The notes: generated by a model not told the origin, from the letters alone. 64,000 nucleotides of DNA from a virus (IMGVR_UViG_3300042544_001590:1-64000); one strand, 5' to 3'; shown: positions 7,402-63,925, counted from the first letter of the stretch. Numbers and translations are program-made.

Positions 7402-7586
7402 TGAGTGAGAAATATGAAGCGGTAATCGGGGGTTATACCTTTCTGATGAAGGATGACGGGGTGATTGAGGTATGGGCAGGGTTGGATAGCGAATATCCAG
7501 AATCCTTCATATATGTGAAGGATGGGAGCGTTTTAGATCGGAAATCTTTTGAGATGGAGATCATGGATTTTTGCCTTAAAAACTAG
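7401..7586 (+). CDS. Small hypothetical protein
   Basis: 61 residues, acidic, with alternating aromatic/hydrophobic residues suggesting a small beta-sheet protein (YEAVIGGYTFLMKDDGVIEV). The ATG overlaps the peptidase stop (GTGATG). Its last residues Leu-Lys-Asn and the TAG stop are supplied by the first copy of the motif. Confidence 0.7.
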   Translation: MSEKYEAVIGGYTFLMKDDGVIEVWAGLDSEYPESFIYVKDGSVLDRKSFEMEIMDFCLKN

Positions 7587-7594
7587 AATATAAT
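7576..7594 (+). promoter_or_regulatory. First copy of the recurring TTAAAAACTAG promoter-like motif
   Basis: TTAAAAACTAGAATATAAT, followed by a 6-nt spacer and ATG at 7601. The TATAAT is a perfect -10 hexamer. No copy occurs to the left. It also encodes the C-terminal LKN and stop of the preceding gene. Other copies are noted with the genes they precede. Confidence 0.85.
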
Positions 7595-7637
7595 TGTGGC
7601 ATGAACGAACGAAGAACTGAAAGAAGAACTCCAGAAA

Positions 7638-7781
7638 ATGAATGACGAAGACCTGTTTTATTTTTTAAGAGAGGTTTTAACTGATCGTGTCATGGAATGG
7701 GCTGAAACCACTACTTATTATAATGAGCCGACATCTAATGCTAAATTAGCGGTAATTAAGCACATTCTGTGTGCTTATTAA
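7638..7781 (+). CDS. Small hypothetical protein, apparently frameshifted near its start
   Basis: 47 residues from this ATG (MNDEDLFYFLREVL...). The motif-positioned ATG at 7601 opens a different frame that stops after 14 codons. The frame of this gene continues upstream as a protein-like stretch (TNEELKEELQKMNDED) back to base 7605. A single extra A just after the 7601 ATG would explain this. Either the gene is broken or it initiates internally here. The stop is the TAA of the next motif. Confidence 0.5.
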   Translation: MNDEDLFYFLREVLTDRVMEWAETTTYYNEPTSNAKLAVIKHILCAY

Positions 7782-7802
7782 AAACTAGGATACAATCGAC
7801 CC

Positions 7803-8525
7803 ATGACTAAAATTGAATTTTCCGACGAACACCTTCGGGTGATGATGACTGCCTTGGAAGTGTATTCCAGACTGAGGGCTGGACAGATCAGGATCGCCAT
7901 GGATGAGGCATTCCGTGATATGAGCTTGTCTTGGAAAGAATTGGAATCCATTGAAAAATTTGTAAGGGGTATCTTGTATCCAGAACCCGTGGAACTGAAA
8001 TACGATGGACATGGGGGGTATTATGATCAATATGGCCGAACTTACGGAGAAGATGGGGAAATGGATGACACCCAAATGTCTTGGGAGGATAAAGAGCGTT
8101 TGAAGCGTTCTGAATTACATGGTAATTATGGGGTGTGTCACAAAGAGATGATCAAGAGTGGGGGGACATTGGCATACGAAATCTATTCCACGCTGCGTCA
8201 ATATGTCTCTCTGAAAAATAATGATGGATACGAAGCGGTGGGGGTGAATTATCTTGATCCTTTGCAAATCACCGAAGTTCCCCTGCCAAGGATTGAAGGA
8301 TTCACCGCCGAAAAGCGATTCCCCATCAAAGATAAGAAGACTGTGGTGAAACTTGAAAACGCAATGGAATTACATAAGGATTTTTCCAAATGTTGGGAAA
8401 TTGTTGGGGAATATCTTAAAAATAAATACCCAGAATTGGATGACTATTCCCAAGCAAGGATTGAAAGAAAAGATAATCATTACGTGGTGATTGTTAAGGG
8501 AGCTAGAAAGAAAAAAGATGAATAA
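7803..8525 (+). CDS. Hypothetical protein
   Basis: 240 residues, no recognised domain. The first 60 residues are helical. An acidic Gly/Tyr-rich segment sits at ~70-95, and the C-terminus is basic (KGARKKKD). The motif with TACAAT and a 6-nt spacer precedes the ATG. The end overlaps the kinase gene by 8 bp, so the two are probably co-translated. Confidence 0.75.
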   Translation: MTKIEFSDEHLRVMMTALEVYSRLRAGQIRIAMDEAFRDMSLSWKELESIEKFVRGILYPEPVELKYDGHGGYYDQYGRTYGEDGEMDDTQMSWEDKERLKRSELHGNYGVCHKEMIKSGGTLAYEIYSTLRQYVSLKNNDGYEAVGVNYLDPLQITEVPLPRIEGFTAEKRFPIKDKKTVVKLENAMELHKDFSKCWEIVGEYLKNKYPELDDYSQARIERKDNHYVVIVKGARKKKDE

Positions 8526-8925
8526 AAGAATTATAATTTTAAGAGGAACCCAAAATTCTGGTAAAAGCACAGTTGCGAAGCTGTTTGGAGAAAATTCAAT
8601 AATCTGCTGTGCTGATGATTACTTCACAGACAATTGGGGTAATTATAATTTTGATCCCAATCTTCTGGGAGTTGCACATAGAATCTGTCGGGAAAAATTC
8701 GTGGATGCTTTAGATGATCCTGATATTGATACCATCGTGGTAGCCAATACAAATGCGACACAGAAGGACTTTCAATTTTATATTGACTCTGCGGAACAAC
8801 ATGGTAATATGGTGTTCTCACTGGTGGTAGAACGCCGACACGATAACCACAACAATCATAACGTGCCACAAGAGGCGATTGATCGTTGTGAACAGAATAT
8901 CAGAAACACATTAAAATTAAAATAA
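8518..8925 (+). CDS. PNK-like P-loop kinase / AAA_33-type ATPase
   Basis: 135 residues. Walker A GTQNSGKST near residues 10-18, then ADDYFTDNWGNYNFDPNLLG, AHRICREKFVDAL, VVANTN and VERRHDN...HNVP. This order matches the P-loop family that includes the N4BP2/polynucleotide-kinase-like proteins. Such enzymes phosphorylate 5'-OH nucleic-acid ends. With two RNA ligases and several phosphoesterases in this window, a role in RNA end healing is reasonable but inferred. An in-frame ATG 27 bp upstream is less likely to be the start because it lies deep inside the upstream gene. Confidence 0.75.
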   Translation: MNKRIIILRGTQNSGKSTVAKLFGENSIICCADDYFTDNWGNYNFDPNLLGVAHRICREKFVDALDDPDIDTIVVANTNATQKDFQFYIDSAEQHGNMVFSLVVERRHDNHNNHNVPQEAIDRCEQNIRNTLKLK

Positions 8926-8926
8926 T

Positions 8927-9598
8927 ATGACAGGAGAAGAATGGGACAAAGACTTTAAGCAATCCTCAAAATTCATACAAGACTTGTCAATGGATTTTTC
9001 TTGGGTTGAGTGGGGAGAAGGCTCAATGAGCATATCACACGTTCCCAAGGGATGGGAGAAGATCATTCGCAATCTCTTTGGAGCGATCAACCAGTATTCC
9101 AAAACGAAAATTTATTATCTGGAAGATACTCCAATGAAGCGTTTCAAATTCTGGTGGAATGGTAAGATTTGGGATGTGTCGAAATTCGTTAGCAAGGTTC
9201 TGAAACCAACCCAAAGACTTTATCCAAGTGATAAACCACAAATGATTTTTCCTGAGATGCAGAAAAAGATTGAAGCTACCTCTTGGTGGAAATGGGAAAA
9301 TCGACTTCGAAAGTTGCTTGGTAAAATGCGATTCGATTTCACGAAATATGAGAGAACCCGATACCCCAATCCAGTCACTATAGAACAGGTGAAATCAAAA
9401 TTTGCGAATTTACGCTGTTATGTTAGTGGTGGGGATGATATTATCAGAGGTATGATCCGTTTGGCAGAATATCAAGCATCCCAAACCTGTGAAGTGACGG
9501 GCAATGCTGGTGTGTTCTGTGTCAATGAGCGGGGGTGGTATCGAACTCTTTCCAAGGCAAAAGCCAAGGAATTGAGATTCCAGCCTGTTAAAAACTAG
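8927..9598 (+). CDS. Hypothetical protein
   Basis: 223 residues, Trp- and Lys-rich, no recognised family. It starts 1 bp after the kinase stop. The C-terminal VKN and stop come from the motif at ~9590. Confidence 0.7.
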   Translation: MTGEEWDKDFKQSSKFIQDLSMDFSWVEWGEGSMSISHVPKGWEKIIRNLFGAINQYSKTKIYYLEDTPMKRFKFWWNGKIWDVSKFVSKVLKPTQRLYPSDKPQMIFPEMQKKIEATSWWKWENRLRKLLGKMRFDFTKYERTRYPNPVTIEQVKSKFANLRCYVSGGDDIIRGMIRLAEYQASQTCEVTGNAGVFCVNERGWYRTLSKAKAKELRFQPVKN

Positions 9599-9612
9599 GA
9601 TACAATAAGGGC

Positions 9613-9855
9613 ATGAAATTATATAAAGTTGAGATGACGTTTGAAACAGTGGTATTGGCTGAAAGTAGCCAAGCTGCTGAAAGAGAAGCCCGTTACAACA
9701 TTGGGGAAGAAGACCCGATTGAGTGTTATATATTCGGTATCAGAGCATTGGGTGATCTACCCGATCAATGGGATGGGGATTGCATACCGTGGGGTGGTGG
9801 ACATAATGTGAAACAACATACAATTAAACAAATTTTGGAAAATGACGAATCTTAA
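9613..9855 (+). CDS. Small hypothetical protein
   Basis: 80 residues, acidic. The pattern MKLYKVEMTFETVVLAESS, then QAAEREARYNIGEE, resembles small phage proteins with one beta strand-helix unit. Motif with TACAAT and 6-nt spacer. It overlaps the following phosphoesterase by 14 bp. Confidence 0.7.
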   Translation: MKLYKVEMTFETVVLAESSQAAEREARYNIGEEDPIECYIFGIRALGDLPDQWDGDCIPWGGGHNVKQHTIKQILENDES

Positions 9856-10522: not shown

Positions 10523-10543
10523 AAACTAGAATACAATACGGAC

Positions 10544-15367: not shown

Positions 15368-16186
15368 ATGAAGAGTATAAAATATCCCGAAAAAGCTGGA
15401 ATTTATAAATTAACCTGTAAAACGAGTGGAAAATTCTATATAGGGAAATCAATAAATATAAGAGATAGAATAAAACGACACGAAAAATCAGCCAAAGACC
15501 TTAAAAATAAATGTCGTATAGTAAAAGCTATAAGAAAATATGGGTGGGACGATTTTGAAGTTGAAATATTGGAAATTTTTGAAGATTTTAATAGAGAATT
15601 TGATGATGCAAAATTATTTTTAATAGAATCTGATTATATAACCAAGCTCAATGCAACTGATGAAAAAGTTGGGTATAATATCTTAACTTGTAATTCTGGT
15701 AAAAACGGGATGAAACATACTGATGAAACAAAGGAAAAACTTAGAAAAGCTAATTTGGGAAAAAAACACAGCGAAGAAACTAAAAAAATGATGTCTGAGA
15801 AATTTTCCGGTGAAAACCATCCGATGTGGGGTAAACATTACACTAAAGAAGCTTTGGTCAAAAAGTCTGGTGAAAATTCATGTTGGTATGGAGTAAAGGG
15901 GGAATCCCACCCTACTTATGGGCGCAAACACACACCAGAAGCTATAAAAATATTAAAAGAAAAAAGACAATTACAAGACACAACACCTTTCAAGAGAAAA
16001 ATAAAACAAATCAATTTAGAAAATGGTGAATGTGTTAAAATATGGGATAGTATTAAAGAGGCTGCTATGTTTTTTGGTGTGAATCCGACTTCCATATCTG
16101 AAGTGTGTAGTAAGAGGAAAAAAGGAAATAGTGTGACAAAAAGATGTAAGGGGTATGGTTGGGAATATTGCGATGTTAAAAACTAG
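15368..16186 (+). CDS. GIY-YIG homing endonuclease
   Basis: 272 residues. N-terminal GIY-YIG nuclease: GIYKLTCKTSGKFYIGKS, with RDRIKRHEK and the catalytic-type Glu region FLIESDYITKLNA. NUMOD3-type repeats follow (KHTDETKEKLRKANLGKKHS, GENHPMWGKHYT, GESHPTYGRKHT), then a C-terminal DNA-recognition HTH (DSIKEAAMFFGVNPTSISEV). The gene is AT-rich compared with its neighbours, consistent with mobility. There is no downstream exon, so it looks free-standing. Ends VKN plus motif TAG. Confidence 0.9.
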   Translation: MKSIKYPEKAGIYKLTCKTSGKFYIGKSINIRDRIKRHEKSAKDLKNKCRIVKAIRKYGWDDFEVEILEIFEDFNREFDDAKLFLIESDYITKLNATDEKVGYNILTCNSGKNGMKHTDETKEKLRKANLGKKHSEETKKMMSEKFSGENHPMWGKHYTKEALVKKSGENSCWYGVKGESHPTYGRKHTPEAIKILKEKRQLQDTTPFKRKIKQINLENGECVKIWDSIKEAAMFFGVNPTSISEVCSKRKKGNSVTKRCKGYGWEYCDVKN

Positions 16187-20280: not shown

Positions 20281-20601
20281 ATGAATGGATACTTGGGAGA
20301 ATTTGAAGTGGATATGGAAGACACGCCATACAAGGATTATGATAAATCCGATTGGATGGTGGAATATATCCAAATGTATGGAGGTATTGATGGTAGCCAT
20401 CACAAGGATTGGGTGATGGATCAATGCATCCGTATTTGGAGTGGTTCAGAAGTGATTGTTAAGGAAGCTCGCTGGAAAGATGGAGAGCGAGAGTATTCGG
20501 AATTTAGAATCAATGTCGGAGAACCCACCAAAAAATATGAAAAATTGGTGGAGGATACCGAAGAAGAAGGATATGAATGGAATCAAGGAATAGCACCTTA
20601 A
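20281..20601 (+). CDS. Hypothetical protein
   Basis: 106 residues, acidic, Trp/Tyr-rich. The upstream motif is a variant (AAAAAATAGACTATAAT) with a 6-nt spacer. The stop is the TAA of the following motif copy. Confidence 0.7.
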   Translation: MNGYLGEFEVDMEDTPYKDYDKSDWMVEYIQMYGGIDGSHHKDWVMDQCIRIWSGSEVIVKEARWKDGEREYSEFRINVGEPTKKYEKLVEDTEEEGYEWNQGIAP

Positions 20602-20616
20602 AAACTAGAATACGAT
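20598..20616 (+). promoter_or_regulatory. Orphan copy of the motif facing the TnpB-like gene
   Basis: TTAAAAACTAGAATACGAT, but no gene follows at the usual distance. The nearest ATG (20618) opens only MPTG and stop. The 3' end of the minus-strand TnpB-like gene begins 18 bp further on. This copy has probably lost its gene or now reads antisense into the nuclease gene. Confidence 0.6.
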
Positions 20617-20634: not shown

Positions 20635-22017
20635 TTATCCAAAATCTGAGTAACCACTAACAAGTGATTTCTCAGATTTCAGACTAAAACAACTCCATCG
20701 ACTAAAATCATAGTCCTTGAAGAGAAACCTTAATTCGTTCAGTTTCTTATTATCTCTCAGATATTCATGAATGCCTTTGTAACCAATATTCTTAGGGTTA
20801 TAGTCCGATAGAATTGAATTCCATCTCTCTTTTATCAGACCCCTATTAATCTTTGGATATAAGACATCCACATCTGAAAATTCTTTACGCTTTTTGATAT
20901 AGCGATTTAAAAACACATGGCAACGGCGAGCAATTTCTAATGCTGCCGCAATGCTGTCGGTTTCCTCTGGATGATCAAGACATCCAACGGTGGAAGAATA
21001 CGCACATATAATCTCTTGGTTTTTGATACCAAGAATGTTAAGACGCTTAATGAGGTTTTGTGAAAATTTTAAACGATTCCAAGAGTTATTAAGGAGTCTA
21101 TTTAGCTTACGTCCTTTATTGTGGTCTTTAGAAGACATTGTAAGCTTCTCAAGACCCACACATTCCACTTTATAATATTTACAGAGATTTGATATGGATT
21201 TGGCAATTTCTACAACCTCGTGATCCTTTTTATTCTTACTATACGTCTCATTCAGCTTGGTAAGATCATAAACACTCTTATGGATGATAGTATCATCATT
21301 GAAATCCCTGATTGTAAATGCGATGTAATTGGGATTTAAATCCAATCCTGTGATTCTATTTTCAATAAATTGGTGTTCTTGTTCCATTAAGACAGATTCA
21401 TCAAAAGTAATATAAATATAATTATTATCTAATTTATAAGTGATCGGGGTGGAATTAAATTCAAAATACGATTGTAACTTTTCAAGCATCTTCCATCTGG
21501 AATTTGAAGTATTTAATTTCAAATTATAATGATCATTTTTAGTGCGTTTGAATATAATTTGTTTATTTATAATATCTAATTTTAATTTTCTATTACCGAG
21601 GGGTTCGTTCCGACCACCATTAAAAAAAGCTGGTCGGCTGTTTTTAATATTATTAAATTCTTCTTTAGTAATTATGCCTTTATTAAAACGTTTCCACTGA
21701 TTAAGTGATCCAAATGTTGTTTTGGTTTGTTTACACTCTTTAGCGGATTTAAAGAGAGCGGAAGCATCTCCAATTTGTGCTGCAAGGATGCTGGCATCAA
21801 CCAAATCATAATTAACATTGTAAGAACTCTTGATTTTTCTGGTGGCGTGGGTGATATCGTGTTTTTCCTTTTTGAAAATATTGAAAGCAATTCTTTTGAT
21901 CTTGTTGCATTCCTTGAGGAATGGTGCAAGATCGGAATCACATTCATATTTGACTTTGAGAGTAGTCACATAAGTATTTAGTATATAACACGTTATTTTT
22001 TGAAATAGTGTTGACAT
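20635..22017 (-). CDS. TnpB/OrfB-like RuvC nuclease
   Basis: 460 residues on the minus strand. The RuvC triad is intact: GLDLNPNYIAF (Asp ~226), VECVGLEKLTM (Glu ~290) and ETDSIAAALEIARR (Asp ~354). This order and spacing match TnpB/IS605 OrfB and Cas12-type RuvC domains. The CxxC zinc-ribbon usually found between the Glu and last Asp motifs is absent (CAYSSTVGCLDHPEE instead). A ~80-residue C-terminal extension is also unusual. No TnpA transposase and no obvious terminal hairpins accompany it. It is AT-rich and the only large minus-strand gene in the accessory region, so it was probably acquired. It may be an RNA-guided nuclease or a homing-type element. Confidence 0.75.
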   Translation of the reverse strand: MSTLFQKITCYILNTYVTTLKVKYECDSDLAPFLKECNKIKRIAFNIFKKEKHDITHATRKIKSSYNVNYDLVDASILAAQIGDASALFKSAKECKQTKTTFGSLNQWKRFNKGIITKEEFNNIKNSRPAFFNGGRNEPLGNRKLKLDIINKQIIFKRTKNDHYNLKLNTSNSRWKMLEKLQSYFEFNSTPITYKLDNNYIYITFDESVLMEQEHQFIENRITGLDLNPNYIAFTIRDFNDDTIIHKSVYDLTKLNETYSKNKKDHEVVEIAKSISNLCKYYKVECVGLEKLTMSSKDHNKGRKLNRLLNNSWNRLKFSQNLIKRLNILGIKNQEIICAYSSTVGCLDHPEETDSIAAALEIARRCHVFLNRYIKKRKEFSDVDVLYPKINRGLIKERWNSILSDYNPKNIGYKGIHEYLRDNKKLNELRFLFKDYDFSRWSCFSLKSEKSLVSGYSDFG

Positions 22018-22059
22018 CTTTAAAAACTAGATTACAATGATAGCATAATAAATAAAAAA

Positions 22060-22689
22060 ATGACAGGATATACAGCAGCAGTTCAGGACGGAACAATCAC
22101 GGAATTCAGGGATTACGCACTTCAATGCGCCAGAGCTTTCGGGGCTTGTGTGATGCAACGGGATGACGACCCATCAGAACCTCCAAAAGAACAGGAAGAA
22201 TCGTCATATTATCAGGAAAGGGTTGATGAGACTCTGAAAGAAATCGAAGAACTGAAAAATCTTTCCGATGAAGAATTGGTGGAATCTGAAAAGAACACAA
22301 ATCTGAGAGAAATCGAGAAATGTAAACAACGTATTGAAGATAAAAAAATCGAAAGACTTCGATATGAAGATATGTTGGAGAAGGTGGAAGCTTGGAAATC
22401 CCCGTCTTTCGAACACAATAATTACAAGGAATTCATGATCAATCAATTGAAAGATTCCATTGCATTTGATTGTGGTGGTAGTTATTACGAAGACAATCTC
22501 CTGCAAGCTATTTCCAAATTGGAAAATATGCCAACAGCCAAAGAAATTAGGGAAGAGCGTTTTTCATCCTTGCAAAAGGATTTGAAATATTATCAGAAAA
22601 ATCTAGCAGAAGAGAAGGAACGAGTATCCGGTAGAAACCAATGGATTAGACAGCTTTATGAATCACTTGAAAATGGAAGCAAATCCTAA
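22060..22689 (+). CDS. Coiled-coil hypothetical protein
   Basis: 209 residues, mostly long charged helices (LKEIEELKNLSDEELVESEK and onward). The motif (TACAAT at 22033-22038) has ATA, not ATG, at the usual position 6 nt downstream; the ATG used lies 15 bp further. Function unknown. Confidence 0.7.
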   Translation: MTGYTAAVQDGTITEFRDYALQCARAFGACVMQRDDDPSEPPKEQEESSYYQERVDETLKEIEELKNLSDEELVESEKNTNLREIEKCKQRIEDKKIERLRYEDMLEKVEAWKSPSFEHNNYKEFMINQLKDSIAFDCGGSYYEDNLLQAISKLENMPTAKEIREERFSSLQKDLKYYQKNLAEEKERVSGRNQWIRQLYESLENGSKS

Positions 22690-24741: not shown

Positions 24742-25230
24742 ATGAACCTTTTCAGCACTTCAGAATGTCCTGATCAATCCGCTCGCTGGTTGGTGGATCG
24801 TCACGTTTCAAAAATGGGATTGGAAGCGACCCAATGTTTATGCACTGCTTATCATGAGCAGGATATCGAAGCTCCCTATCGACCATCACACAAAAATCAC
24901 CCAACTTCCATCTGGATACGGGCAAGCTACGACAACTTCCAATGGGCAATTGCTCATGGACATGCCATCTTTGACGAATACACGGCACGATATGGTAAGA
25001 TTCACAAATCCCAAGCTGTTCTTGATTGGTGTGAGGAAAATGTATCCAAGCTGGGATTTGATTCGTTTGACCTGACACCTTTTGCCATTGCCATATCGGA
25101 TGACAGCATTTGTCGGACATTGCCGGAATTTGATGAGAGTGATCCTATTATGGCTTATCGTTATTATGTAAAATTTGATAAAGCGCATTTACATGCTTGG
25201 AAAAGAAACAAACCGGAATGGATCGAATGA
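24742..25230 (+). CDS. Conserved phage protein (MNLFxT...DRHVxKMxLEATQ family)
   Basis: 162 residues. The opening NLFSTSECPDQSARWLVDRH, then VSKMGLEATQCLCTAYH, and the later HPTSIWIRASYDNFQWAIAH match a widespread phage family that I recognise but whose function is not established. Motif with TACGAT and 6-nt spacer. The stop overlaps the next start. Confidence 0.7.
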   Translation: MNLFSTSECPDQSARWLVDRHVSKMGLEATQCLCTAYHEQDIEAPYRPSHKNHPTSIWIRASYDNFQWAIAHGHAIFDEYTARYGKIHKSQAVLDWCEENVSKLGFDSFDLTPFAIAISDDSICRTLPEFDESDPIMAYRYYVKFDKAHLHAWKRNKPEWIE

Positions 25231-28440: not shown

Positions 28441-28867
28441 CGAAATAATATTACCGATTGAATTGTTTGATGGTCGCCTATCTCTCCTTGAGATAGGGAC
28501 AGTGGGCGTTATCATGTCTTATCCCCACCAAGCCAAGGATGTGCTTGACAAATGGGATGGAACTGCTATCTTCAACCAGACGATCAACCAGATGATGGAT
28601 CGGGGAATGATTACCGTGGAAGGTGATGAACTGGTATTGAAAATCGATGATGAACAACCAAAGTATAATAATATGAAAATTGAAACGGCATTAAACGAAT
28701 TGTATAACAATGGAATTTGCAATGAGGACAACGTGGAAGCGATCCGTGATGTCATGGAAGAGCTTTCCAACGAATTCTATCATTTGGGTTATGAGGATGG
28801 TAGGATTGATTTTAACGTGGATGGTGATACATTCACTGCATATGGTAAGAAAGAGGACTTCTCTTAA
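28433..28867 (+). CDS. Acidic hypothetical protein, possible winged helix
   Basis: 144 residues. The stretch SLLEIGTVGVIMSYPHQAKD through NQMMDRGMITVEGDELVLKI resembles a winged-helix fold used by phage regulators. The C-terminal half is helical and acidic. The stop is the motif's TAA. Confidence 0.6.
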   Translation: MNNEIILPIELFDGRLSLLEIGTVGVIMSYPHQAKDVLDKWDGTAIFNQTINQMMDRGMITVEGDELVLKIDDEQPKYNNMKIETALNELYNNGICNEDNVEAIRDVMEELSNEFYHLGYEDGRIDFNVDGDTFTAYGKKEDFS

Positions 28868-28888
28868 AAACTAGACTACACTGATACC

Positions 28889-29086
28889 ATGAAAGCAAGT
28901 TATCGCAAAACAAAGACTGGATATTACCCTGTAATTATCTTCAATAACAAATCGCGCATGACGCATCGTGTCCAATGTTTCACAAAAGATTCGGCAATTA
29001 GGCTTGCGGAAAGTGTTATCAACGACATTATCAATGTCGGGATTATCTCAGAATATCAAGAAAATGAACATTCAAGCATACGTTAA
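28889..29086 (+). CDS. Small basic hypothetical protein
   Basis: 65 residues. KASYRKTKTGYYPVIIFNNK and CFTKDSAIRLAESVINDIIN suggest a strand-strand-helix fold. Motif TACACT, spacer GATACC. Confidence 0.6.
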   Translation: MKASYRKTKTGYYPVIIFNNKSRMTHRVQCFTKDSAIRLAESVINDIINVGIISEYQENEHSSIR

Positions 29087-29276
29087 TATTGAGCCTATAA
29101 CAATCAAGAGAGAATTGACCAGAGGTGAGTGTCTGGAATTCATCACGGAAATTGATGCTGCATACAAGGATGTGGGTTTCACGTTGGAATTGATCAAAAT
29201 CCTGATGAAGTCTGTTAAGGGTGATCTGGAGGATTTTGAATGGAATGAATTATTGGAATCATTCACGAAATTATGA
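29064..29276 (+). CDS. Small hypothetical protein
   Basis: 70 residues (MNIQAYVNIEPITIKRELTR...), helical C-terminus. Overlaps the previous gene by 23 bp and the next ATG by 4 bp. Confidence 0.6.
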   Translation: MNIQAYVNIEPITIKRELTRGECLEFITEIDAAYKDVGFTLELIKILMKSVKGDLEDFEWNELLESFTKL

Positions 29277-29707
29277 TCAAGATACCTGAAGAAATTATAA
29301 ACAGATTCAATTTACCAAATACGGCATTTTTATCTGGAAGTAGAGCCATGGGATTCCCAAGAGAAGGGAGTGATTGGGATGTTTGCTTTCCCAATCACTT
29401 AATAGCTGATATTAAAGACAAATGTGATAATATCAAGGAAAGTGAATACTTTGAGGGATTTGTAACACAATTTGGAGAATATAAAGTGAATTTTATCCCT
29501 CTCCATCCCTTAGATATGGTTTGTTGGATTTTAGCAACCAAAACAATTGCTGATTTGAACAACACCTTCGAACATACCAGAATTAAAGAACCGGATATGC
29601 GCCATGGGATATTTGAAACATTCAGGGGAGTGTTCAAAACGACCATTGTTTACGAGGGAGCAAAGGCACTTGATCCGATAATTGAAAAGCTGCTTGCCGA
29701 TTCTTAA
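29273..29707 (+). CDS. Nucleotidyltransferase-fold protein
   Basis: 144 residues. FLSGSRAMGFPREGSDWDVC is a clear GSRAxG...SDxD minimal nucleotidyltransferase signature. A third acidic residue may be in the following strands. Proteins of this type modify nucleic acids, proteins or small molecules; the target is unknown. Second such gene in the window. Confidence 0.7.
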   Translation: MIKIPEEIINRFNLPNTAFLSGSRAMGFPREGSDWDVCFPNHLIADIKDKCDNIKESEYFEGFVTQFGEYKVNFIPLHPLDMVCWILATKTIADLNNTFEHTRIKEPDMRHGIFETFRGVFKTTIVYEGAKALDPIIEKLLADS

Positions 29708-29728
29708 AAACTAGACTACACCGATACC

Positions 29729-29995
29729 ATGGAAAGATTAATTGTTGCTGCTGCCATGCTAATGGATGATGGGGATGTTGTGGTCGGTATCCGACACTTT
29801 TCCCCTGAAATGCGTAAGATTATGTTTAAAGCTTATGGGGAAAAATATCATTTGAAAGTCAAGGAACAAGGATTTGTGGATCAAATGGGGGTATTTTTAA
29901 GTCGTGAGGATGCTTGGAAAATAGCTGAAAAAGAAGGTCAGATCAGACGAAAAGTATCTTCTGAGGGAACGCTCTACAGTGAGAACCTTTATTAA
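29729..29995 (+). CDS. Hypothetical protein
   Basis: 88 residues. RLIVAAAMLMDDGDVVVGIR, then HFSPEMRKIM and later GVFLSREDAWKIAEKEGQI, look like a small conserved phage protein. Function unknown. Motif (TACACC), 6-nt spacer. Confidence 0.65.
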   Translation: MERLIVAAAMLMDDGDVVVGIRHFSPEMRKIMFKAYGEKYHLKVKEQGFVDQMGVFLSREDAWKIAEKEGQIRRKVSSEGTLYSENLY

Positions 29996-30016
29996 AAACT
30001 AGATCACACTCAGGAC

Positions 30017-30307
30017 ATGAAGCAAGAACTTTATATCGAACTTGATGGTAACACATCCAAAGAACTTTGGGATAATCTAATGGATTTGATGTGTGAAGCA
30101 TGTAAATGTAAAAACGATGAGGGGGTGGACGAATGGCCACTGTTGATGTCAAAGAGTTATAAGGGACTGATCAAAGTGGTTGATCTTGGCAAGGGGAATA
30201 CCAGCGGAAACCAATATCATAAAGATGTAGAGATCAAAAAATTGAAAGCCGAAATTACCAATTTGGAGAATAGAAAATCGGGACACAATATTTTGAATTA
30301 TGTGTGA
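30017..30307 (+). CDS. Hypothetical protein
   Basis: 96 residues, acidic start, coiled-coil end (DVEIKKLKAEITNLENRKSG). Motif variant CACACT, 6-nt spacer. Overlaps the next gene by 8 bp. Confidence 0.6.
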   Translation: MKQELYIELDGNTSKELWDNLMDLMCEACKCKNDEGVDEWPLLMSKSYKGLIKVVDLGKGNTSGNQYHKDVEIKKLKAEITNLENRKSGHNILNYV

Positions 30308-30485
30308 TTGTTATAAAATTGGTGGACCTTGGATTGCAGAAGACCCAAATTGTCCAGTTCATGGAACTGAGGCTAGGATTAAAACAAACAAGATTGAAGC
30401 TCTTAAAACAAGAGCCGATCAAGCTACAAATCTTGAAGAAGTGACGGCAATATTAAAAGACTTTATTGATCTACAATCGGAATGA
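30300..30485 (+). CDS. Small Cys/His protein
   Basis: 61 residues, with CDC and CPVHG near the N-terminus forming a possible metal site, then a helix. Operon-internal. Confidence 0.6.
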   Translation: MCDCYKIGGPWIAEDPNCPVHGTEARIKTNKIEALKTRADQATNLEEVTAILKDFIDLQSE

Positions 30486-30516
30486 TTTCTTTTAAAAACT
30501 AGACTACACTGATACC

Positions 30517-31473
30517 ATGCAGATTAACACGCTAGAAACCAAATTCGCCAAATGCTCGTCAATTGAGATTCCCGATTCCTATTACAATAGGATGACTACG
30601 GGATGTCCTGAAATTGACCTGATGTTCGGCACGGAACATCTCATGGGATTTATGGCTGGAAGCGCGATTGCGATGACGGGAACTCCGGGGGCTGGAAAAT
30701 CCACCTTCACTTTGTTGGTATCTCAAATGCTTGCCACTCAAGGTAAACGTGCCGCCATTGCCTCTGGAGAGGAATCCCATCTTCAAATCGCCTATGCTTG
30801 CAAGCGTCTTGGTGTTACCGATGTGGACGTTGCCCATATCAAGAATGTGGAAGAAATTGCGGAAGCCATGCACCATTACGATTTCATGGTTGTGGATAGC
30901 TTTCAAGCCCTTCGTTCCAACAAGAACATGAAAAAGAGGGAATTCTATCAATACGCTCAGGATTTGCTTCTATCAACTGCCAAGGAGACGGGATGCGTTC
31001 TGGTGTTCGTTCTCCATATCACCACCCAAGGACTGCCCAAGGGCGGAACCGATATCATCCATGCCGTGGATGTGAACATGAAAGTCACGGTGGATAAGGA
31101 GGATGATTCCATGCGTCTCTTTCATGTATATAAGAATCGCTTTGGAGAAACCAAGATTCATATGGCAATGATGACTTCCAAGGGATTTGACTTCAAGGGT
31201 GCTTATGTTGCTCCTGTGGAAGCTGAAAAGCCTAAGAAGGATAAGACTCCCACTGCGGAGATTCGCAAGGAAGAAATTCTCAATATGGATGAACCTTCCC
31301 ACTTGACTATGGATCGGGTGTGTGATAGGCTTGGGGTAGCGGGACACACTGCTGGCATTCTCCTTCGGGAGCTTGTCGGAGAGGGCAAGATGCAGAAGTA
31401 TGGTAGGGGTGTGAATGCTGTTTGGAAGATCGCGCAGGAATGTCAGAAATTACACAAACATTTAACGAAATGA
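30517..31473 (+). CDS. RadA/RecA-like ATPase with C-terminal winged helix
   Basis: 318 residues. Walker A GTPGAGKST near residues 55-63, Walker B HYDFMVVDSFQAL, and the RadA/Sms signature KNRFGET near residue 205. The usual N-terminal zinc finger and C-terminal Lon-like domain of RadA are missing. Instead residues ~250-310 look like a winged helix (EEILNMDEPSHLTMDRVCDR...). Likely acts in phage recombination or replication. Motif with TACACT and 6-nt spacer. Confidence 0.8.
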   Translation: MQINTLETKFAKCSSIEIPDSYYNRMTTGCPEIDLMFGTEHLMGFMAGSAIAMTGTPGAGKSTFTLLVSQMLATQGKRAAIASGEESHLQIAYACKRLGVTDVDVAHIKNVEEIAEAMHHYDFMVVDSFQALRSNKNMKKREFYQYAQDLLLSTAKETGCVLVFVLHITTQGLPKGGTDIIHAVDVNMKVTVDKEDDSMRLFHVYKNRFGETKIHMAMMTSKGFDFKGAYVAPVEAEKPKKDKTPTAEIRKEEILNMDEPSHLTMDRVCDRLGVAGHTAGILLRELVGEGKMQKYGRGVNAVWKIAQECQKLHKHLTK

Positions 31474-46167: not shown

Positions 46168-46239
46168 AAACGAATTGACTTTTTTAAAAACTAGACTACA
46201 CTTTGGTCGTAACGAAAAACAACAACACACACTACTACA

Positions 46240-47274
46240 ATGGCACACGAAATTGAAATTGGAACTGATCGGGTAATCACCTATGGCGCACGGGCATGGC
46301 ACTTGCTTGATGAAAATCACCAGACTCCTCTTACCAAAGAGATTCTGAATCCCCTGTTCATTCCCTATCTGGAAGGACAAGCTAACGTCAACATTGATGG
46401 TGTTGAAGTCCCGCTTGAAGGATGGAAAACCATTGTTGCGGATATCCGTAACATCGAGGACATTGAGGGGGATTTCCGTCCTGTTCATGTCGCATCCGAC
46501 AAGTATGAAATCCTTCAAAATGAATTGCTTTTTGATGCTCTTCAGGATGCTCTGGATAGTATCAATTACAAGATCGTATCGGCGGGAACTCTCTCTGGTC
46601 TGAAGAACTTCTTCGTATCCGTCGAATTTGATGGAGAGTCGAATATCAATCTTCCTGATGGAAGTGAGTGTAAGGCATTCTTCTCTCTCTTCACTTCCCA
46701 TGATGGCACGAAGAACGCGAACTATTATGATACAACGCATAGGACTGTGTGTGCAAACACGCTTCGCTCTTCCTTTGAAGCAAAGGGTAATCAGGGATTC
46801 CGTATCTCTCATACCAAGAACGCATCCATCCGTATCAGCAACATGGCGGAAATTGTTAATAACACTCTGCTTGGTCGTCGCCAATTTGAAGAGAAGATGG
46901 CGGAACTTTACAGCGTTGAATGTGATCTTTCCAAGGCGGAACGCTTCGTTGCGGGATACCTTGCTGACAAGACCAAAACCGAAGAGAAGCTTTCCACACG
47001 TTCTCTGAATCAGATGGCGGAAATCGTCTCTCTGGCATGGAACGGTAGCGGTAATCGTGGTGGGAACATGTTCTACCTTGCCCAAGGTGCAACGGAATTC
47101 TGGACTAGGGGTAATGGCACGGGCGGATCAAACAAAGACCTTGGACGTAAGGCATACTCCGCTGAATTCGGGCTGGGTATGGAGAACAAGAGAAACTTCG
47201 TATCCGCTCTTGTCAATCCTGTGGAGCGTGAGAAGCTTATCAAGCGGGGTGATCTGGTTCTTACTGCTGGATGA
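46240..47274 (+). CDS. DUF932 (phage/plasmid-like TIGR03299) family protein
   Basis: 344 residues. The N-terminal GTDRVITYGARAWHLLDE, the central VEFDGESNINLPDGSECKAF, NYYDTTHRTVCANTLRSSF and the C-terminal NGSGNRGGNMFYLAQGATEF fit the DUF932 family found on phages and plasmids, function unknown. The motif (TACACT) lies ~37 nt upstream of the ATG. The leader is A/C-rich (AACAACACACACTAC), without Shine-Dalgarno. Confidence 0.75.
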   Translation: MAHEIEIGTDRVITYGARAWHLLDENHQTPLTKEILNPLFIPYLEGQANVNIDGVEVPLEGWKTIVADIRNIEDIEGDFRPVHVASDKYEILQNELLFDALQDALDSINYKIVSAGTLSGLKNFFVSVEFDGESNINLPDGSECKAFFSLFTSHDGTKNANYYDTTHRTVCANTLRSSFEAKGNQGFRISHTKNASIRISNMAEIVNNTLLGRRQFEEKMAELYSVECDLSKAERFVAGYLADKTKTEEKLSTRSLNQMAEIVSLAWNGSGNRGGNMFYLAQGATEFWTRGNGTGGSNKDLGRKAYSAEFGLGMENKRNFVSALVNPVEREKLIKRGDLVLTAG

Positions 47275-50887: not shown

Positions 50888-51087
50888 AATTTAGAAAAGA
50901 ATCAACCAAAACAATCTCTTTGGAATCGTATGTCACTTTACGTGCTGAATGGTTGCCAATGCTACGGGATACCATTTGGATGGAATATAACGCAAGGGGA
51001 CATCGTGTGGTTGATGGTCACATGGAGTGGCAATACTTCCATGATGAGATCGAAGCAAAGAAGTGGAGTGAAGCAATTCATTCTTAA
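50884..51087 (+). CDS. Small basic hypothetical protein
   Basis: 67 residues (MKFRKESTKTISLESYVTLR...). Operon-internal. An earlier in-frame start would lie inside the previous gene. Confidence 0.6.
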   Translation: MKFRKESTKTISLESYVTLRAEWLPMLRDTIWMEYNARGHRVVDGHMEWQYFHDEIEAKKWSEAIHS

Positions 51088-51108
51088 AAACTAAACCATA
51101 ATAAAGAC

Positions 51109-51300
51109 ATGCAAATCAAGAAATTTGGTTGGGATGTGAAAGTTGTTCGTTTGGAAACAAAGGATGAGGAAACCGTGAAATACAGCGCAAGCCATAATTT
51201 TCCGGTGACTGCTGAACACGTTAGGAAATCCCCATCTGTAAAAAGATTCATTGGGGATGATCTTCTGGTATCAATCACACCTTCCGACGATAAAAACTAA
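51109..51300 (+). CDS. Small basic hypothetical protein
   Basis: 63 residues, beta-like. Motif CATAAT, spacer AAAGAC. Ends DKN at the next motif. Confidence 0.6.
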   Translation: MQIKKFGWDVKVVRLETKDEETVKYSASHNFPVTAEHVRKSPSVKRFIGDDLLVSITPSDDKN

Positions 51301-57619: not shown

Positions 57620-57688
57620 ATGAACGAAACAATGACCGAAGCGGATATCCAAGACATGATTGACTATCACAACGGGATCGTTAAATGA
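57620..57688 (+). CDS. 22-residue micro-protein upstream of a tRNA
   Basis: MNETMTEADIQDMIDYHNGI then VK. The last 14 residues are identical to those of the micro-protein at 58,993. Both lie just before a tRNA with anticodon UAA. Motif CACAAT, spacer CATAGC. Confidence 0.55.
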   Translation: MNETMTEADIQDMIDYHNGIVK

Positions 57689-58992: not shown

Positions 58993-59061
58993 ATGCCTGA
59001 CAATATGTGCGAATACGATATCCAAGACATGATTGACTATCACAACGGGATTGTTAAGTAG
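58993..59061 (+). CDS. 22-residue micro-protein upstream of a tRNA (duplicate)
   Basis: MPDNMCEYDIQDMIDYHNGI then VK. Near-duplicate of the micro-protein at 57,620, again followed within 10 bp by a UAA-anticodon tRNA. Motif TATAAT, spacer CATCCC. Confidence 0.55.
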   Translation: MPDNMCEYDIQDMIDYHNGIVK

Positions 59062-59070
59062 AATTTAAAT

Positions 59071-59464: not shown

Positions 59465-59626
59465 AACATGAAACAACTTGCAACTCTCGCCTTCTATGCG
59501 AAATACGCCGGATGGCAATCCTATCACAAGTCCATGCTTCCCCAAGTCAAAGCCCTAACACGCAAGGGATTTCTGGAAATGAATGAGCATGGGCAAGCGC
59601 GGTTCACGGGAAAGTGTCAAGATTAA
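59222..59626 (+). CDS. Lar-like zinc-ribbon protein fused to a small phage protein
   Basis: 134 residues. Residues ~1-80 carry LLPCPFCGSEARIGQG, VVECSNDENCRAQ and ELWNARA, the Lar (restriction alleviation)-type CPFCG ribbon. From residue 83 (MKQLATLAFYAKYAGWQSYH...) the sequence and base composition change to those of a typical local gene. That gene probably once began at 59468. Lar proteins modulate type I restriction in some phages; here this is inferred from motif only. Confidence 0.65.
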   Translation: MSDTEKLAEATDSGLLQPRLVRLLPCPFCGSEARIGQGDGWPGETVVECSNDENCRAQMSCIWGEKNETELWNARANPQPNNMKQLATLAFYAKYAGWQSYHKSMLPQVKALTRKGFLEMNEHGQARFTGKCQD

Positions 59627-59642
59627 AAAACTAGCCTAGAAT

Positions 59643-59717
59643 GCGCTTGTAGCTCAGTGGTTAGAGCGAGCCTCTCATAAAGGCTGGGTCGATGGTTCAA
59701 TCCCATCCGAGCGCACC
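59643..59717 (+). tRNA. tRNA-Met(CAU)
   Basis: Acceptor GCGCTTG/CGAGCGC (one T-G), D-arm GCTC/GAGC, anticodon arm AGCCT-CTCATAA-AGGCT (anticodon CAT), T-arm GATGG-TTCAATC-CCATC, ending ACC without the final A. Its first base directly follows the TAGAAT of a motif. A CAU tRNA-Ile with lysidine is an alternative identity. Confidence 0.8.
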
Positions 59718-59737
59718 TTTAAAAACTAGCATAGAAT

Positions 59738-59814
59738 GGATGCGTAGCTCAACTGGATAGAGCAATTCCCTTCTAAGGAATAGGTTGTGGGTTCAAATCC
59801 CGCCGCGTCCACCA
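59738..59814 (+). tRNA. tRNA-Arg(UCU)
   Basis: Acceptor GGATGCG/CGCGTCC, D-arm GCTC/GAGC, anticodon arm ATTCC-CTTCTAA-GGAAT (anticodon TCT, reads AGA), T-arm GTGGG-TTCAAAT-CCCGC, discriminator A and CCA. Directly abuts the TAGAAT of a motif. Confidence 0.85.
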
Positions 59815-60922: not shown

Positions 60923-60936
60923 AATAAGATAAAGCC

Positions 60937-61122: not shown

Positions 61123-61146
61123 TAAAAACTAGCGTAAGATCAGGAC

Positions 61147-61389
61147 ATGAAACAATTCAACCTATTCTGGAAGTTCTCAGGTATTAAGAACTACGACCCC
61201 CACCAAACCATCACCGCAAGGAATCTCCCGGAAGCCTTGGAAATAGCTGCAAACGACCATGGTTTCCTGATTAGGGGAGAAACCCTAAAACGCAACGGCA
61301 ACCGTAGAATTGAATTTTGGGGATATGCCGGGGAAGGAACGATGAAAGTCCCCGCACCGATTATCCAAGGGGTGATTGCCAATGCTTAA
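61147..61389 (+). CDS. Hypothetical protein
   Basis: 80 residues. ITARNLPEALEIAANDHGFL then IRGETLKRNG is a small strand-helix fold. Motif TAAGAT, spacer CAGGAC. Stop is the next motif's TAA. Confidence 0.65.
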   Translation: MKQFNLFWKFSGIKNYDPHQTITARNLPEALEIAANDHGFLIRGETLKRNGNRRIEFWGYAGEGTMKVPAPIIQGVIANA

Positions 61390-61410
61390 AAACTAGCGTA
61401 AGATCAGGAC

Positions 61411-61749
61411 ATGACAATCAACGGAATCCAAATTAAGACAACCCTTTCCAACACCAAAAAACCGGATTGGAGCAGGGGCAATCATAACCATTACAAGGTG
61501 CGGATTTCCAAGGGAAGGAATAGCGTATCCTTTGATTACTTTGACAGCATCCACAATACGCAAAATAATGAGGAAGCGGACATGAAAGATATCCTTTTCT
61601 GCTTTGCATCCGATGTGAGCAACGGGCGGGAGGAATTCGATGATTCCATGATGACTCCCAAGCAATACCGAGAATGCAAGCGTGTGGCCAATGCTGCGGA
61701 AAGGATGGGCATTTCCAACGAAACACTGGCGGAATGGTGGCAGCTTTAA
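61411..61749 (+). CDS. Hypothetical protein
   Basis: 112 residues. The first half is basic and beta-like. The second half is helical (MTPKQYRECKRVANAAERMG). Motif TAAGAT, spacer CAGGAC. It precedes the iteron-like repeats and is not followed immediately by another motif. Confidence 0.65.
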   Translation: MTINGIQIKTTLSNTKKPDWSRGNHNHYKVRISKGRNSVSFDYFDSIHNTQNNEEADMKDILFCFASDVSNGREEFDDSMMTPKQYRECKRVANAAERMGISNETLAEWWQL

Positions 61750-61769
61750 AACAAAGGACGCGGGAATCA

Positions 61770-61869
61770 GTGTGACAAAATGACGCACCTCCACCTAAGT
61801 CTCTGATAGTGTGACAAAATGACGCACTCAAGGTGCGACAAAATGACGCACTGTGACAAAATGACGCAC
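61770..61869 (+). repeat. Four iteron-like direct repeats (core TGTGACAAAATGACGCAC)
   Basis: Copies at 61770-61788, 61809-61827, 61833-61851 and 61852-61869, differing only at the third or fourth base. Each contains two TGAC half-sites 8 bp apart. They lie in a ~186-bp gap without genes. The arrangement resembles replication iterons or a multi-site operator. No other copies were seen in the window. Confidence 0.85.
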
Positions 61870-61935
61870 TTTAGGAATAGAAGGATACGAAAGGATAGGG
61901 GAAATAACTTTTAAAAACTAGCGTAAGATTTCAGC

Positions 61936-62130
61936 ATGACGAAATTACTCGACAAAGAACACGTGAAAGCAATGGTAAAAGCTCTGGAAAGCGCGGGCTT
62001 GCCTTTGGAAAAGGATTGGCAAAGCGGGACTGTTCGGGCATACATCAACGGCAAGGAAATCTTCGCCGCTCTGGAGAAGGGCAAGAACCAGCCTTGGATT
62101 GTGCGCCATGTTGATGATCTGTTCGCATAA
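61936..62130 (+). CDS. Small hypothetical protein
   Basis: 64 residues. HVKAMVKALESAGLPLEKDW helix then a short strand. Motif TAAGAT, spacer TTCAGC. First gene downstream of the iteron-like repeats. Confidence 0.65.
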   Translation: MTKLLDKEHVKAMVKALESAGLPLEKDWQSGTVRAYINGKEIFAALEKGKNQPWIVRHVDDLFA

Positions 62131-62135
62131 TGTTC

Positions 62136-62435
62136 CTAATCAGAATGTTCCTTGATATGACATAATCGACAAAGCCAAGTTATATCAAGAGGTTTGGAAT
62201 AATCTTTATGATGCATTTCCTCGCCTATCTCACCACATATACAATTTTCGCGCAATATCTTACCACGTTTTAAATATACATTTGCTGTTGATCGTGCATT
62301 AGCTTTCAATCGCTGAATATCACTAAGTTCTGAATGTTTGGTTCTATTGATTCGCATCCATTCAGCACGGCATGATTTACACCAACGTTGATTATTAACC
62401 CGCTCATTCACTTTACATTTATTACAATATGTCAT
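62136..62435 (-). CDS. HNH-like zinc-binding endonuclease candidate
   Basis: 99 residues on the minus strand. An N-terminal zinc knuckle (YCNKCKVNERVNNQRWCKSC), a basic helix, and a C-terminal block CICGEIGEEMHHKDYSKPLD followed by ITWLCRLCHIKEH match compact HNH nucleases of phages. An in-frame ATG 27 bp upstream is possible. It is AT-rich and on the opposite strand to its neighbours, which suggests a mobile homing-type gene. Confidence 0.7.
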   Translation of the reverse strand: MTYCNKCKVNERVNNQRWCKSCRAEWMRINRTKHSELSDIQRLKANARSTANVYLKRGKILRENCICGEIGEEMHHKDYSKPLDITWLCRLCHIKEHSD

Positions 62436-62451
62436 AATAATACTTAGAATA

Positions 62452-62478
62452 TTGTTCCACATTTGTATAGTGGAACAA
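62452..62478. other. Perfect 9-bp inverted repeat upstream of the HNH-like gene
   Basis: TTGTTCCAC (62452-62460) and GTGGAACAA (62470-62478) around a 9-nt loop. It could be an operator, a terminator or a border of the inserted gene. A related GTTCC occurs at the gene's other end (62143). Confidence 0.5.
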
Positions 62479-62510
62479 GTGATGTTTAAAAACTAGCCTA
62501 GACTGATCAC

Positions 62511-62648
62511 ATGAAGGAACTGCCACCGTGCCACAAAGATTCCCCCCTCCATGATAAATGGCTTGTCATTGTCGCTCAAATGGAGGATGAGGGATGCGAT
62601 ACATCCGATGCCCAATCCATAGCCGATATTGAGGTGTTTAAAAACTAG
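62511..62648 (+). CDS. Small acidic hypothetical protein
   Basis: 45 residues (MKELPPCHKDSPLHDKWLVI...). Motif TAGACT, spacer GATCAC. Ends FKN with the motif TAG. Confidence 0.6.
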   Translation: MKELPPCHKDSPLHDKWLVIVAQMEDEGCDTSDAQSIADIEVFKN

Positions 62649-62659
62649 ATTAAGATTTA

Positions 62660-62826
62660 GCTACCAATACAACGCCGGAGCCGCTGCGGAGCGGAGTCCC
62701 CCGCAAAGGGACATATAAAAAAGCTTTTGTCGTTCGATTCCCGGATGCATACGGGATAGAGCAAGAGGACTAGCTATCCTTGGACAAGACGAAAGCGGAG
62801 GGTTCGAAACCTTCCTCGGGCTTCCT
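62660..62826 (+). ncRNA. Structured RNA region with degenerate tRNA-like element(s)
   Basis: A motif (TAAGAT) precedes a gene-free stretch of helices: CCGCT/AGCGG, GTCCC/GGGAC and TCCCG/CGGGA. The right half (about 62,742-62,826) is tRNA-like: a D-arm-like ATACGGGATAGAGC, an anticodon-like stem GAGGA-CTAGCTA-TCCTT, a long variable region and a T-arm GAGGG-TTCGAAA-CCTTC. This recalls a class II tRNA (Ser/Leu), but the acceptor is imperfect. Probably decayed tRNAs or an unknown RNA. Confidence 0.4.
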
Positions 62827-62855
62827 TTTCTTAAAAACTAAACCAGAATAACACC

Positions 62856-63026
62856 ATGACGAGACAATATACAAACCGACTGCTGGAAATGATCGAAGAT
62901 GGTCTGCTTGACAAGGACAACGTGATCATGGCTTGTGTCAAATACATGTCGGAGGACGATGTGGAGGACATGATGAAATGCAACGAATTTCTGGAGGACG
63001 AAGAAGAGGAGGATGAGGACGAATAA
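62856..63026 (+). CDS. Small very acidic protein
   Basis: 56 residues (MTRQYTNRLLEMIEDGLLDK...), ending in a run of 15 mainly acidic residues. Motif CAGAAT, spacer AACACC. Could be a DNA mimic, but this is speculation. Confidence 0.65.
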   Translation: MTRQYTNRLLEMIEDGLLDKDNVIMACVKYMSEDDVEDMMKCNEFLEDEEEEDEDE

Positions 63027-63050
63027 AAACTAGCGTAAGATAGCCTCACC

Positions 63051-63275
63051 ATGAAACGATACGCCATAAGATCAAAACAAAAGGAAATAGGATATATCAA
63101 ATTTACAGTTCCCACCATTGAAGTATTACATTTCAATTCTCCTTTCTTTCTTGGATCGTGGTGTGCTGACAATGGAACACTGTGGACATGTTTGGATGAT
63201 GGGAAAAACATTTTTGAGAATGAGAATGAAGCCAAGGAAAGATTGGCCGAAATCATCAAGGAATTGTTCGCTTAA
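63051..63275 (+). CDS. Small hypothetical protein
   Basis: 74 residues, basic start, beta middle, acidic helix. Motif TAAGAT with a 9-nt spacer (AGCCTCACC). Confidence 0.65.
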   Translation: MKRYAIRSKQKEIGYIKFTVPTIEVLHFNSPFFLGSWCADNGTLWTCLDDGKNIFENENEAKERLAEIIKELFA

Positions 63276-63296
63276 AAACTAGACCAGAATAACACC

Positions 63297-63452
63297 ATGA
63301 TAATCACATACACCGCAAGATACGCAGATGGTGAAAAAGTCACGTTCACGGGAAAATTCGATGACCTGAAAGACTTTGGGAATTTCGCTCACCGTGAGAG
63401 CAAAAGGCCGAATTACAATGGTGATATGTTCATCATCATTAGCATCGTTTAA
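63297..63452 (+). CDS. Small hypothetical protein
   Basis: 51 residues (MIITYTARYADGEKVTFTGK...), beta-rich. Motif CAGAAT, spacer AACACC. Stop at the next motif's TAA. Confidence 0.65.
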   Translation: MIITYTARYADGEKVTFTGKFDDLKDFGNFAHRESKRPNYNGDMFIIISIV

Positions 63453-63476
63453 AAACTAGCCTAAGATTATCGCACC

Positions 63477-63560
63477 ATGAAACAACTCATCCTTGACACC
63501 CTCGCCGCGTTCTTCCTGTTCGCGTTCACTCCCATCGTCCTGTTCATCCTGATCGGATAA
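63477..63560 (+). CDS. 27-residue membrane peptide
   Basis: MKQLILDTLAAFFLFAFTPI then VLFILIG: a single hydrophobic helix, GC-richer than its neighbours. Motif TAAGAT with a 9-nt spacer. Might be a small membrane effector. Confidence 0.5.
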   Translation: MKQLILDTLAAFFLFAFTPIVLFILIG

Positions 63561-63593
63561 CCTTTATAAAAACTAGCGTAAGCTCGTAGCACC

Positions 63594-63848
63594 ATGAAAC
63601 TGAAAATAACAAGCACCGCACCAGTCGCAGTCGAAACCTATGTTGAGGGTAATATTGTCCTCGGGCATTTCGAGTACAACGAGGGTGATTCCGCCCTTGG
63701 GGTCAATCCCCACTTTGTCCTTGTCGATGAAGTGTCGGATGACTTCCCAATCCTTTGGGAAGGGCAGGAAGTGACCATTCACAACGGGTGGTTCATCTTC
63801 GATGACGTTCACTTCGGAGAAGTGAAATTCAAGTTCGCCGGATATTAA
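63594..63848 (+). CDS. Hypothetical protein
   Basis: 84 residues, acidic, beta-rich (KLKITSTAPVAVETYVEGNI...). Motif TAAGCT with a 9-nt spacer. Unrecognised. Confidence 0.65.
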   Translation: MKLKITSTAPVAVETYVEGNIVLGHFEYNEGDSALGVNPHFVLVDEVSDDFPILWEGQEVTIHNGWFIFDDVHFGEVKFKFAGY

Positions 63849-63851
63849 ACC

Positions 63852-63867
63852 AACCCCGAAAGGGGTT
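63852..63867 (+). terminator. Short GNRA-loop hairpin, possible terminator
   Basis: AACCCC-GAAA-GGGGTT, a perfect 6-bp stem with a stable tetraloop, 4 bp after the stop codon. No long T-run follows, so it may stabilise the mRNA 3' end instead of terminating. Confidence 0.45.
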
Positions 63868-63925
63868 CAATCCCCCTTATAAAAACTAGCCTAGACTGAT
63901 CTCGTAACCAACACCAACCAACACC

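Follow-up and report, generated by a model that had tools for sequence, protein, structure and literature searches.

The first 64,000 nucleotides (nt) of the IMG/VR virus record IMGVR_UViG_3300042544_001590 (the window, meaning this whole analyzed stretch; the record has 207,489 bases and may be incomplete) raise the question of why one promoter-like motif, an AAAAACTA block followed by a TANNNT-type hexamer, recurs ahead of gene after gene, and where transcription from it would begin. An earlier model-based reading of the DNA (the sequence-only reading) had described about 100 copies fixed 6 nt before start codons and proposed that transcription begins on the A of the ATG. The analysis reported here indicates that the motif is very probably an early-type promoter of a T4-superfamily lineage, predicted to drive leaderless or nearly leaderless messenger RNAs (mRNAs).

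A one-stranded array of motif copies

Matches to AAAAACTAGNNTANNNT with no more than 2 mismatches numbered 100 in the window, all on the + strand, where 100 shuffles gave a mean of 8.1 and a largest value of 16. The AAAAACTA core was found at 97 sites on the + strand and 2 on the - strand, and 95 of the 97 had an A at hexamer position 2 and a T at position 6 (span 7578-63897). The gap from hexamer to ATG was 6 nt in 73 of these 95 copies, then 9 nt (6 copies), 18 nt (5) and 8 nt (4), with no copy at 5 or 7 nt, confirming the described repetition and spacing. The consensus given with that description was present in the DNA and had been drawn too strictly, since -25 is T or A (T65/A35), -15 is G or A (G74/A26) and the first hexamer base, -12, is mainly T or C (T59/C29); literal TTAAAAACTAGNNTANNNT occurs only 34 times in the window. 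Near-invariant parts of the motif were AAAAACTA, A-11 and T-7. In 60 of the 95 copies the motif contained the stop of the gene before it (TAA in 37, TAG in 23). Copies were dense from 7.6 to 67.1 kilobases (kb) of the record, running beyond the window, and sparse elsewhere. The array and representative copies, numbered relative to the predicted transcription start (+1), are as follows.

7578-63897, + strand: array of 95 early-type promoter copies (predicted) of the form AAAAACTA-N4-A-N3-T (-23 to -7), one ahead of most genes or gene pairs
7780-7805, + strand: typical copy, AAAAACTAGGATACAAT, 6 nt, then the ATG of a 240-amino-acid open reading frame (ORF) at 7803-8525; predicted +1 at the A at 7803
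51086-51111, + strand: example with a CATAAT-type hexamer, AAAAACTAAACCATAAT, 6 nt, ATG
63025-63053, + strand: example of the second spacing class, with a predicted leader of 3 nt (start between C and ACC ATG)
22011-22038, + strand: composite promoter with a TTGAC -35 at 16-base-pair (bp) spacing, AAAAACTA and a -10 TACAAT, ahead of a leadered gene (22060-22689) with its ATG about 15 nt past +1
46175-46202, + strand: composite promoter, TTGACTTTTTTAAAAACTAGACTACACT, upstream of a leadered DUF932-domain gene (46240-47274)

The hexamer has the A at position 2 and the T at position 6 of a sigma70-type -10 element. Most copies have no TTGACA -35 at 16-18 bp, and the TG of an extended -10 at -15/-14 is absent, -15 being G or A and -14 mainly A.

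Predicted transcription start at the A of the start codon

To place +1, 433 motif copies in sequence stretches of six related phages were pooled. The predicted leader was 0 nt in 265 of the 433 (61%), the first T of the hexamer then preceding the start codon by about 12 nt as in the 73 window copies; it was 2-3 nt in 97 (22%; 3 nt in 83 and 2 nt in 14), and leaders of 4-12 nt were very few. Of the 165 distinct pooled copies in which no ATG begins at +1, 141 kept a pyrimidine at -1 with a purine at +1 (Y-1/R+1), giving a binomial p of about 1e-60 that ignores the relatedness of the copies and so overstates certainty; the excess was present in every phage having more than a handful of copies. 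TTGAC occurred at -34 (16-bp spacer) in 10 of the 433 copies and no more than twice at each of the other offsets. The predicted mRNAs were weakly structured over their first 40 nt (-2.6 vs -5.8 kcal/mol further in), and the predicted leaders of 0-3 nt resemble the leaderless class in Lactococcus (PMC10986495).

Shine-Dalgarno-like sequence was found ahead of 0-9% of genes in this lineage, at or below the background of 7-9%, vs 25-59% in phages T4, KVP40, S-SM1 and C48C1. Its reported lack ahead of motif-led genes was borne out and extends to the whole phage.

Two other promoter classes pointed to the same position. A late box of the form [ACT]TAA[AG]TA ended exactly 5 nt before an ATG in 55 of 198 occurrences in one genome (G000) and in 42 of 205 in another (G008), whereas the distance from box to ATG was mostly 15-40 nt in sampled regions of T4, KVP40 and S-SM1; C48C1 had few late-box sites in the stretch compared. 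The T4 late box is an 8-bp element starting at -13 (PMC2988020), and by this geometry a box ending 5 nt before the ATG places the ATG at +1. TATAAATA-like boxes were accordingly assigned to -13 to -6 ahead of late genes. The exact T4 late consensus TATAAATA was rejected as the local box, having only 21 matches, 3 of them near an ATG; in this phage the box reads C/T/A-TAAATA or TAAGTA. TTGAC-N16-TANNNT was also preferred in the genome (40 sites at 16 bp vs 5-9 at other spacings), with an ATG 5-7 nt past the -10 in 11 of the 40.

Taken together, the initiator bases kept in copies without an ATG, the TTGAC spacing, the late-promoter geometry and the lack of Shine-Dalgarno sequence give good support to a predicted start on the A of the ATG, as first proposed. 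Leaderless expression in this phage is likewise well supported at the level of sequence, and most of the lineage appears to make mRNAs without the usual ribosome-landing leader.

Gene layout and proposed mechanism

In the array region (7.5-67.5 kb) 147 genes were called, of which 91 followed a motif copy, 36 abutted or overlapped their predecessor (32 coupled and 4 near) and 20 were classed as other; these class counts are somewhat biased, the gene caller being our own and favoring promoter-preceded starts, and the motif consensus, late-box, pooled-copy and ATG-offset counts are independent of them. On these numbers the motif was fairly described as preceding nearly every single gene and operon, and most promoterless genes start no more than a few bases away from the previous stop. 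Outside the array region, 61 coupled and 7 near genes were counted among 187.

In the mechanism that we favor, the TANNNT half would serve as a sigma70-type -10 element at -12 to -7, and AAAAACTA as a specificity element taking the place of a -35, which most copies lack. A sigma70-type polymerase, helped by contact with AAAAACTA, would open the -10 and initiate 7 nt after the hexamer. For about 61% of copies +1 would then coincide with the A of the ATG, and for about 22% it would precede that A by 2-3 nt; ribosomes would load on the 5'-terminal AUG of the mRNA. With Shine-Dalgarno sequence at background, good translation would be expected only for genes at an RNA 5' end or overlapping the stop of the preceding gene; almost every gene would therefore need to be promoter-led or coupled, and internal ATGs on run-on transcripts would be poorly read unless coupled, which would account for a promoter on nearly every unit. 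Later genes could obey the same rule through the T4-type late box and the TTGAC-N16-TANNNT promoters. The motif and its spacing, the initiator bases, the -35 phasing, the conservation among relatives, the lack of Shine-Dalgarno sequence, the late-box spacing and the gp55 homologue are seen directly in the sequence, whereas we infer from it the actual 5' ends, the early timing, translation from a 5' AUG and what reads AAAAACTA.

A broader proposal, which we hold tentatively and rate somewhat below an even chance, is that the whole lineage gave up leadered translation: early-type, sigma70-type and gp55-type promoters would all put the start codon at +1, genes would be arranged as shufflable promoted units with stop-start coupled followers, and AAAAACTA would be read by an undescribed factor.

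Shuffling of motif-bounded units

In three comparisons with relatives, homology blocks ended within 15 nt of a motif in 18 of 64 cases (5.2 expected), 37 of 62 (5.0) and 12 of 26 (2.1). One such rearrangement lies within the window.

28866-30510, + strand: motif-bounded units with copies at 28866, 29706, 29994 and 30494, whose order differs in the related phage G011 at 97-99% identity

Here 28856-29715 is reordered relative to 29702-30519 in G011. Motif borders were broken more often than coupled borders (71 of 91 vs 21 of 37, p = 0.019), and in G011 alone the two kinds were broken equally. Because gene gain and loss fall at gene borders anyway, shuffling of units is shown by these data and the motif as its driver only weakly. 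The suggestion that each small gene forms a self-contained cassette stands to that extent: motif-gene units do occur in different orders among related phages.

Hexamer types also shifted along the array, TACAAT and TACACT dominating to about 42 kb and CATAAT and TAAGAT after it (window 42000-64000), which suggests local spread of units.

Observations weighing against the early-type promoter

Several observations sit poorly with the proposed promoter and start site. About 20 of the 147 array-region genes are neither motif-led nor coupled. Terminator-like sites (25) barely exceed the shuffle mean of 19.4, so that transcription probably continues into the units that follow. Two transfer RNA (tRNA) genes begin immediately past the hexamer and do not fit a +1 at hexamer+7.

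59626-59717, + strand: motif copy (59626-59642) abutting tRNA-Met (59643-59717)
59721-59814, + strand: motif copy (59721-59737) abutting tRNA-Arg (59738-59814)

Initiation at the predicted +1 would truncate both. Related contigs show a like arrangement, with 2 or 3 tRNA-Ser genes abutting a promoter of the TTGAC type. Each of the two genes in the window lies inside a predicted transcript from the next promoter upstream, and both tRNAs could be made by upstream read-through and normal tRNA processing. The predicted start is supported, on the other hand, by the tRNA genes directly after a motif in relatives, which begin mostly 5-11 nt past the hexamer and so not much before +1, if at all.

At 57620-57688 and 58993-59060, both tRNA-Leu genes follow a motif-led 22-codon ORF with the common terminal peptide DIQDMIDYHNGIVK, and DNA for the last part of this peptide also precedes a tRNA-Leu in L136; the leader-tRNA-Leu unit was possibly duplicated.

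Alternative explanations

The fixed distance to the ATG and the lack of terminator enrichment would also be expected if the motif were a translation element, an unusual ribosome-binding site on long read-through mRNAs, and not a promoter. When the ATG is displaced, however, the hexamer stays phased to Y-1/R+1 and not to the ATG, tRNA genes too are preceded by the motif, and the conserved A-11 and T-7 are a sigma70 signature; with TTGAC at the -35 phase, the ground on which this explanation was rejected, it is very unlikely. We give equally little credence to a start directly after the hexamer, for example from a 17-bp promoter of a single-subunit polymerase, which would leave 6-nt leaders and put tRNA-Met and tRNA-Arg exactly at +1. 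The 17-bp length of the motif and the abutment of these two tRNA genes fit such a start. It was rejected on base composition: the position just past the hexamer shows no purine preference (A40 C26 G11 T23), whereas hexamer+7 is a purine in 151 of the 165 pooled non-ATG copies. TTGAC at sigma70 spacing and the other tRNA genes, beginning 5-11 nt downstream, also speak against it; a search for single-subunit polymerases gave no match, though it lacked a positive control.

Hardly more probable is that the copies are kept mainly as recombination seams for the shuffling of small genes, with a promoter role that is secondary or lost in many. The excess of homology-block ends near motifs, the differing unit order at 97-99% identity and the more frequent breakage of motif borders all favor a seam, but block ends coincide with gene borders in any case, and the two kinds of border break equally in G011. 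Variable hexamers that still obey the -10 rules, together with the initiator bases, point instead to selection for promoter function.

Candidate readers of AAAAACTA

The block occupies -23 to -16, within the spacer, and was correctly placed by the sequence-only reading between the positions of a -35 and an extended -10. That reading had considered a phage-encoded sigma factor or polymerase, a suggestion borne out only in part. A homologue of the late sigma factor gp55 (E = 1e-16 against the C48C1 protein) is indeed encoded at 132842-133291 of the record. Its gene sits just downstream of one for a UvsW-like helicase, a neighborhood shared with C48C1; this gp55-type sigma was assigned to the late box and not to the AAAAACTA motif. 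Searches of the record for sigma70 regions 2 and 4 gave no match, and a search for T7-type single-subunit RNA polymerases gave none either in the record or in the control genomes and is therefore uninformative. The spacer position of AAAAACTA, its near invariance and its absence from most TTGAC promoters suggest an unusual spacer contact by the host polymerase or a phage-delivered factor. Direct contact by host RNA polymerase is slightly favored over the latter.

Phage lineage and host

Homologues of the T4 portal (gp20), head maturation protease (gp21), major capsid protein (gp23), sliding clamp (gp45) and gp55 were found in the record, together with further T4-type tail tube and baseplate proteins, and on this protein content the phage is a member of the T4 superfamily. 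Portal and capsid identity to cultured phages is only about 26-34%, indicating a deep branch. We infer that the dense motif region holds early genes, because it contains many small ORFs and is separated from the structural genes.

Several IMG/VR contigs with a related portal hold 37-99 motif copies, mainly on one strand. A pattern of one frequent motif form plus ATG matched 98 stretches of viral contigs and had no match in bacterial genome contigs. A near-identity search of the phage collection gave no match, nor did a host search with the portal protein in bacterial genome contigs; comparison of the sugar-nucleotide dehydratase and one other protein with plasmids indicated no clear host lineage. 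The ribonucleotide reductase was closest to a mixture of alphaproteobacterial and staphylococcal phages.

Relation to known systems

In T4-type phages the promoters of many small early genes are repeated across the genome, as are those of the many small early-type genes here. In T4, early promoters include a -35 and the center of MotA boxes is near -30; the extra element here differs in lying at -23 to -16, and leaders are predicted to be absent. The late promoters are likewise T4-like in having the box at -13 to -6, a gp55 homologue, a sliding clamp and late structural genes (PMC2988020), and unlike those of T4, KVP40 and S-SM1, where Shine-Dalgarno sequence is common, in the distance of the box from the ATG.

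Leaderless genes with a -10 element next to the ORF occur in Deinococcus-Thermus and Actinobacteria (PMC3160421, PMC12340547), and share with the present array the absence of Shine-Dalgarno sequence, an optional -35 and a TANNNT that precedes the start codon by about 12 nt. In D. radiodurans about a third of genes are leaderless, alongside Shine-Dalgarno-led genes (PMC12340547), whereas here the setting is a phage, Shine-Dalgarno sequence nowhere rises above background and the motif includes an invariant AAAAACTA block as well. Among phages, a single leaderless gene has been noted in lambda (PMC3160421), and a study of phage AR9 described phage transcripts as often leaderless, yet reported AR9 leaders of 26-491 nt (PMC5312081). 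The predicted mRNAs here would resemble these single cases in starting at AUG and differ in comprising most promoter-led genes and several promoter classes. The open-licence literature searched yielded no account of this motif or of a phage that is leaderless throughout.

In bacteria leaderless mRNAs usually count as a minority mode, and in phages as a curiosity. If several promoter classes of a T4-type lineage have been re-spaced to drop the leader, with T4, KVP40 and a cyanophage keeping Shine-Dalgarno leaders, the lineage would constitute a natural experiment in switching of translation initiation, and it predicts host ribosomes that readily accept a 5'-terminal AUG. The spacing offers a rule by which genes and start codons of such phages could be called from sequence, and the copies provide about a hundred natural variants of a single promoter for study. 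The invariance of the AAAAACTA block suggests a promoter contact or a factor that has yet to be described.

Other features of the array

One motif copy has no + strand gene after it.

20600-20616, + strand: motif copy; the gene that follows it, 20635-22017, lies on the - strand

The latter is a 460-amino-acid ORF between two + strand motif copies in an otherwise one-stranded array, with no match in Pfam or PHROG, and possibly represents an insertion between the promoter and its gene. Near-identical GGGGGGAGCGCATCCTACACGCTC hairpin-like repeats lie just upstream of motif copies at L009:1589-1632 and 3079-3110 and are possibly terminators. The array gene at 24742-25230 matched PHROG 624 (DNA binding protein, E = 3e-46) and is a possible candidate regulator, and that at 15368-16186 encodes a GIY-YIG homing endonuclease with NUMOD3.

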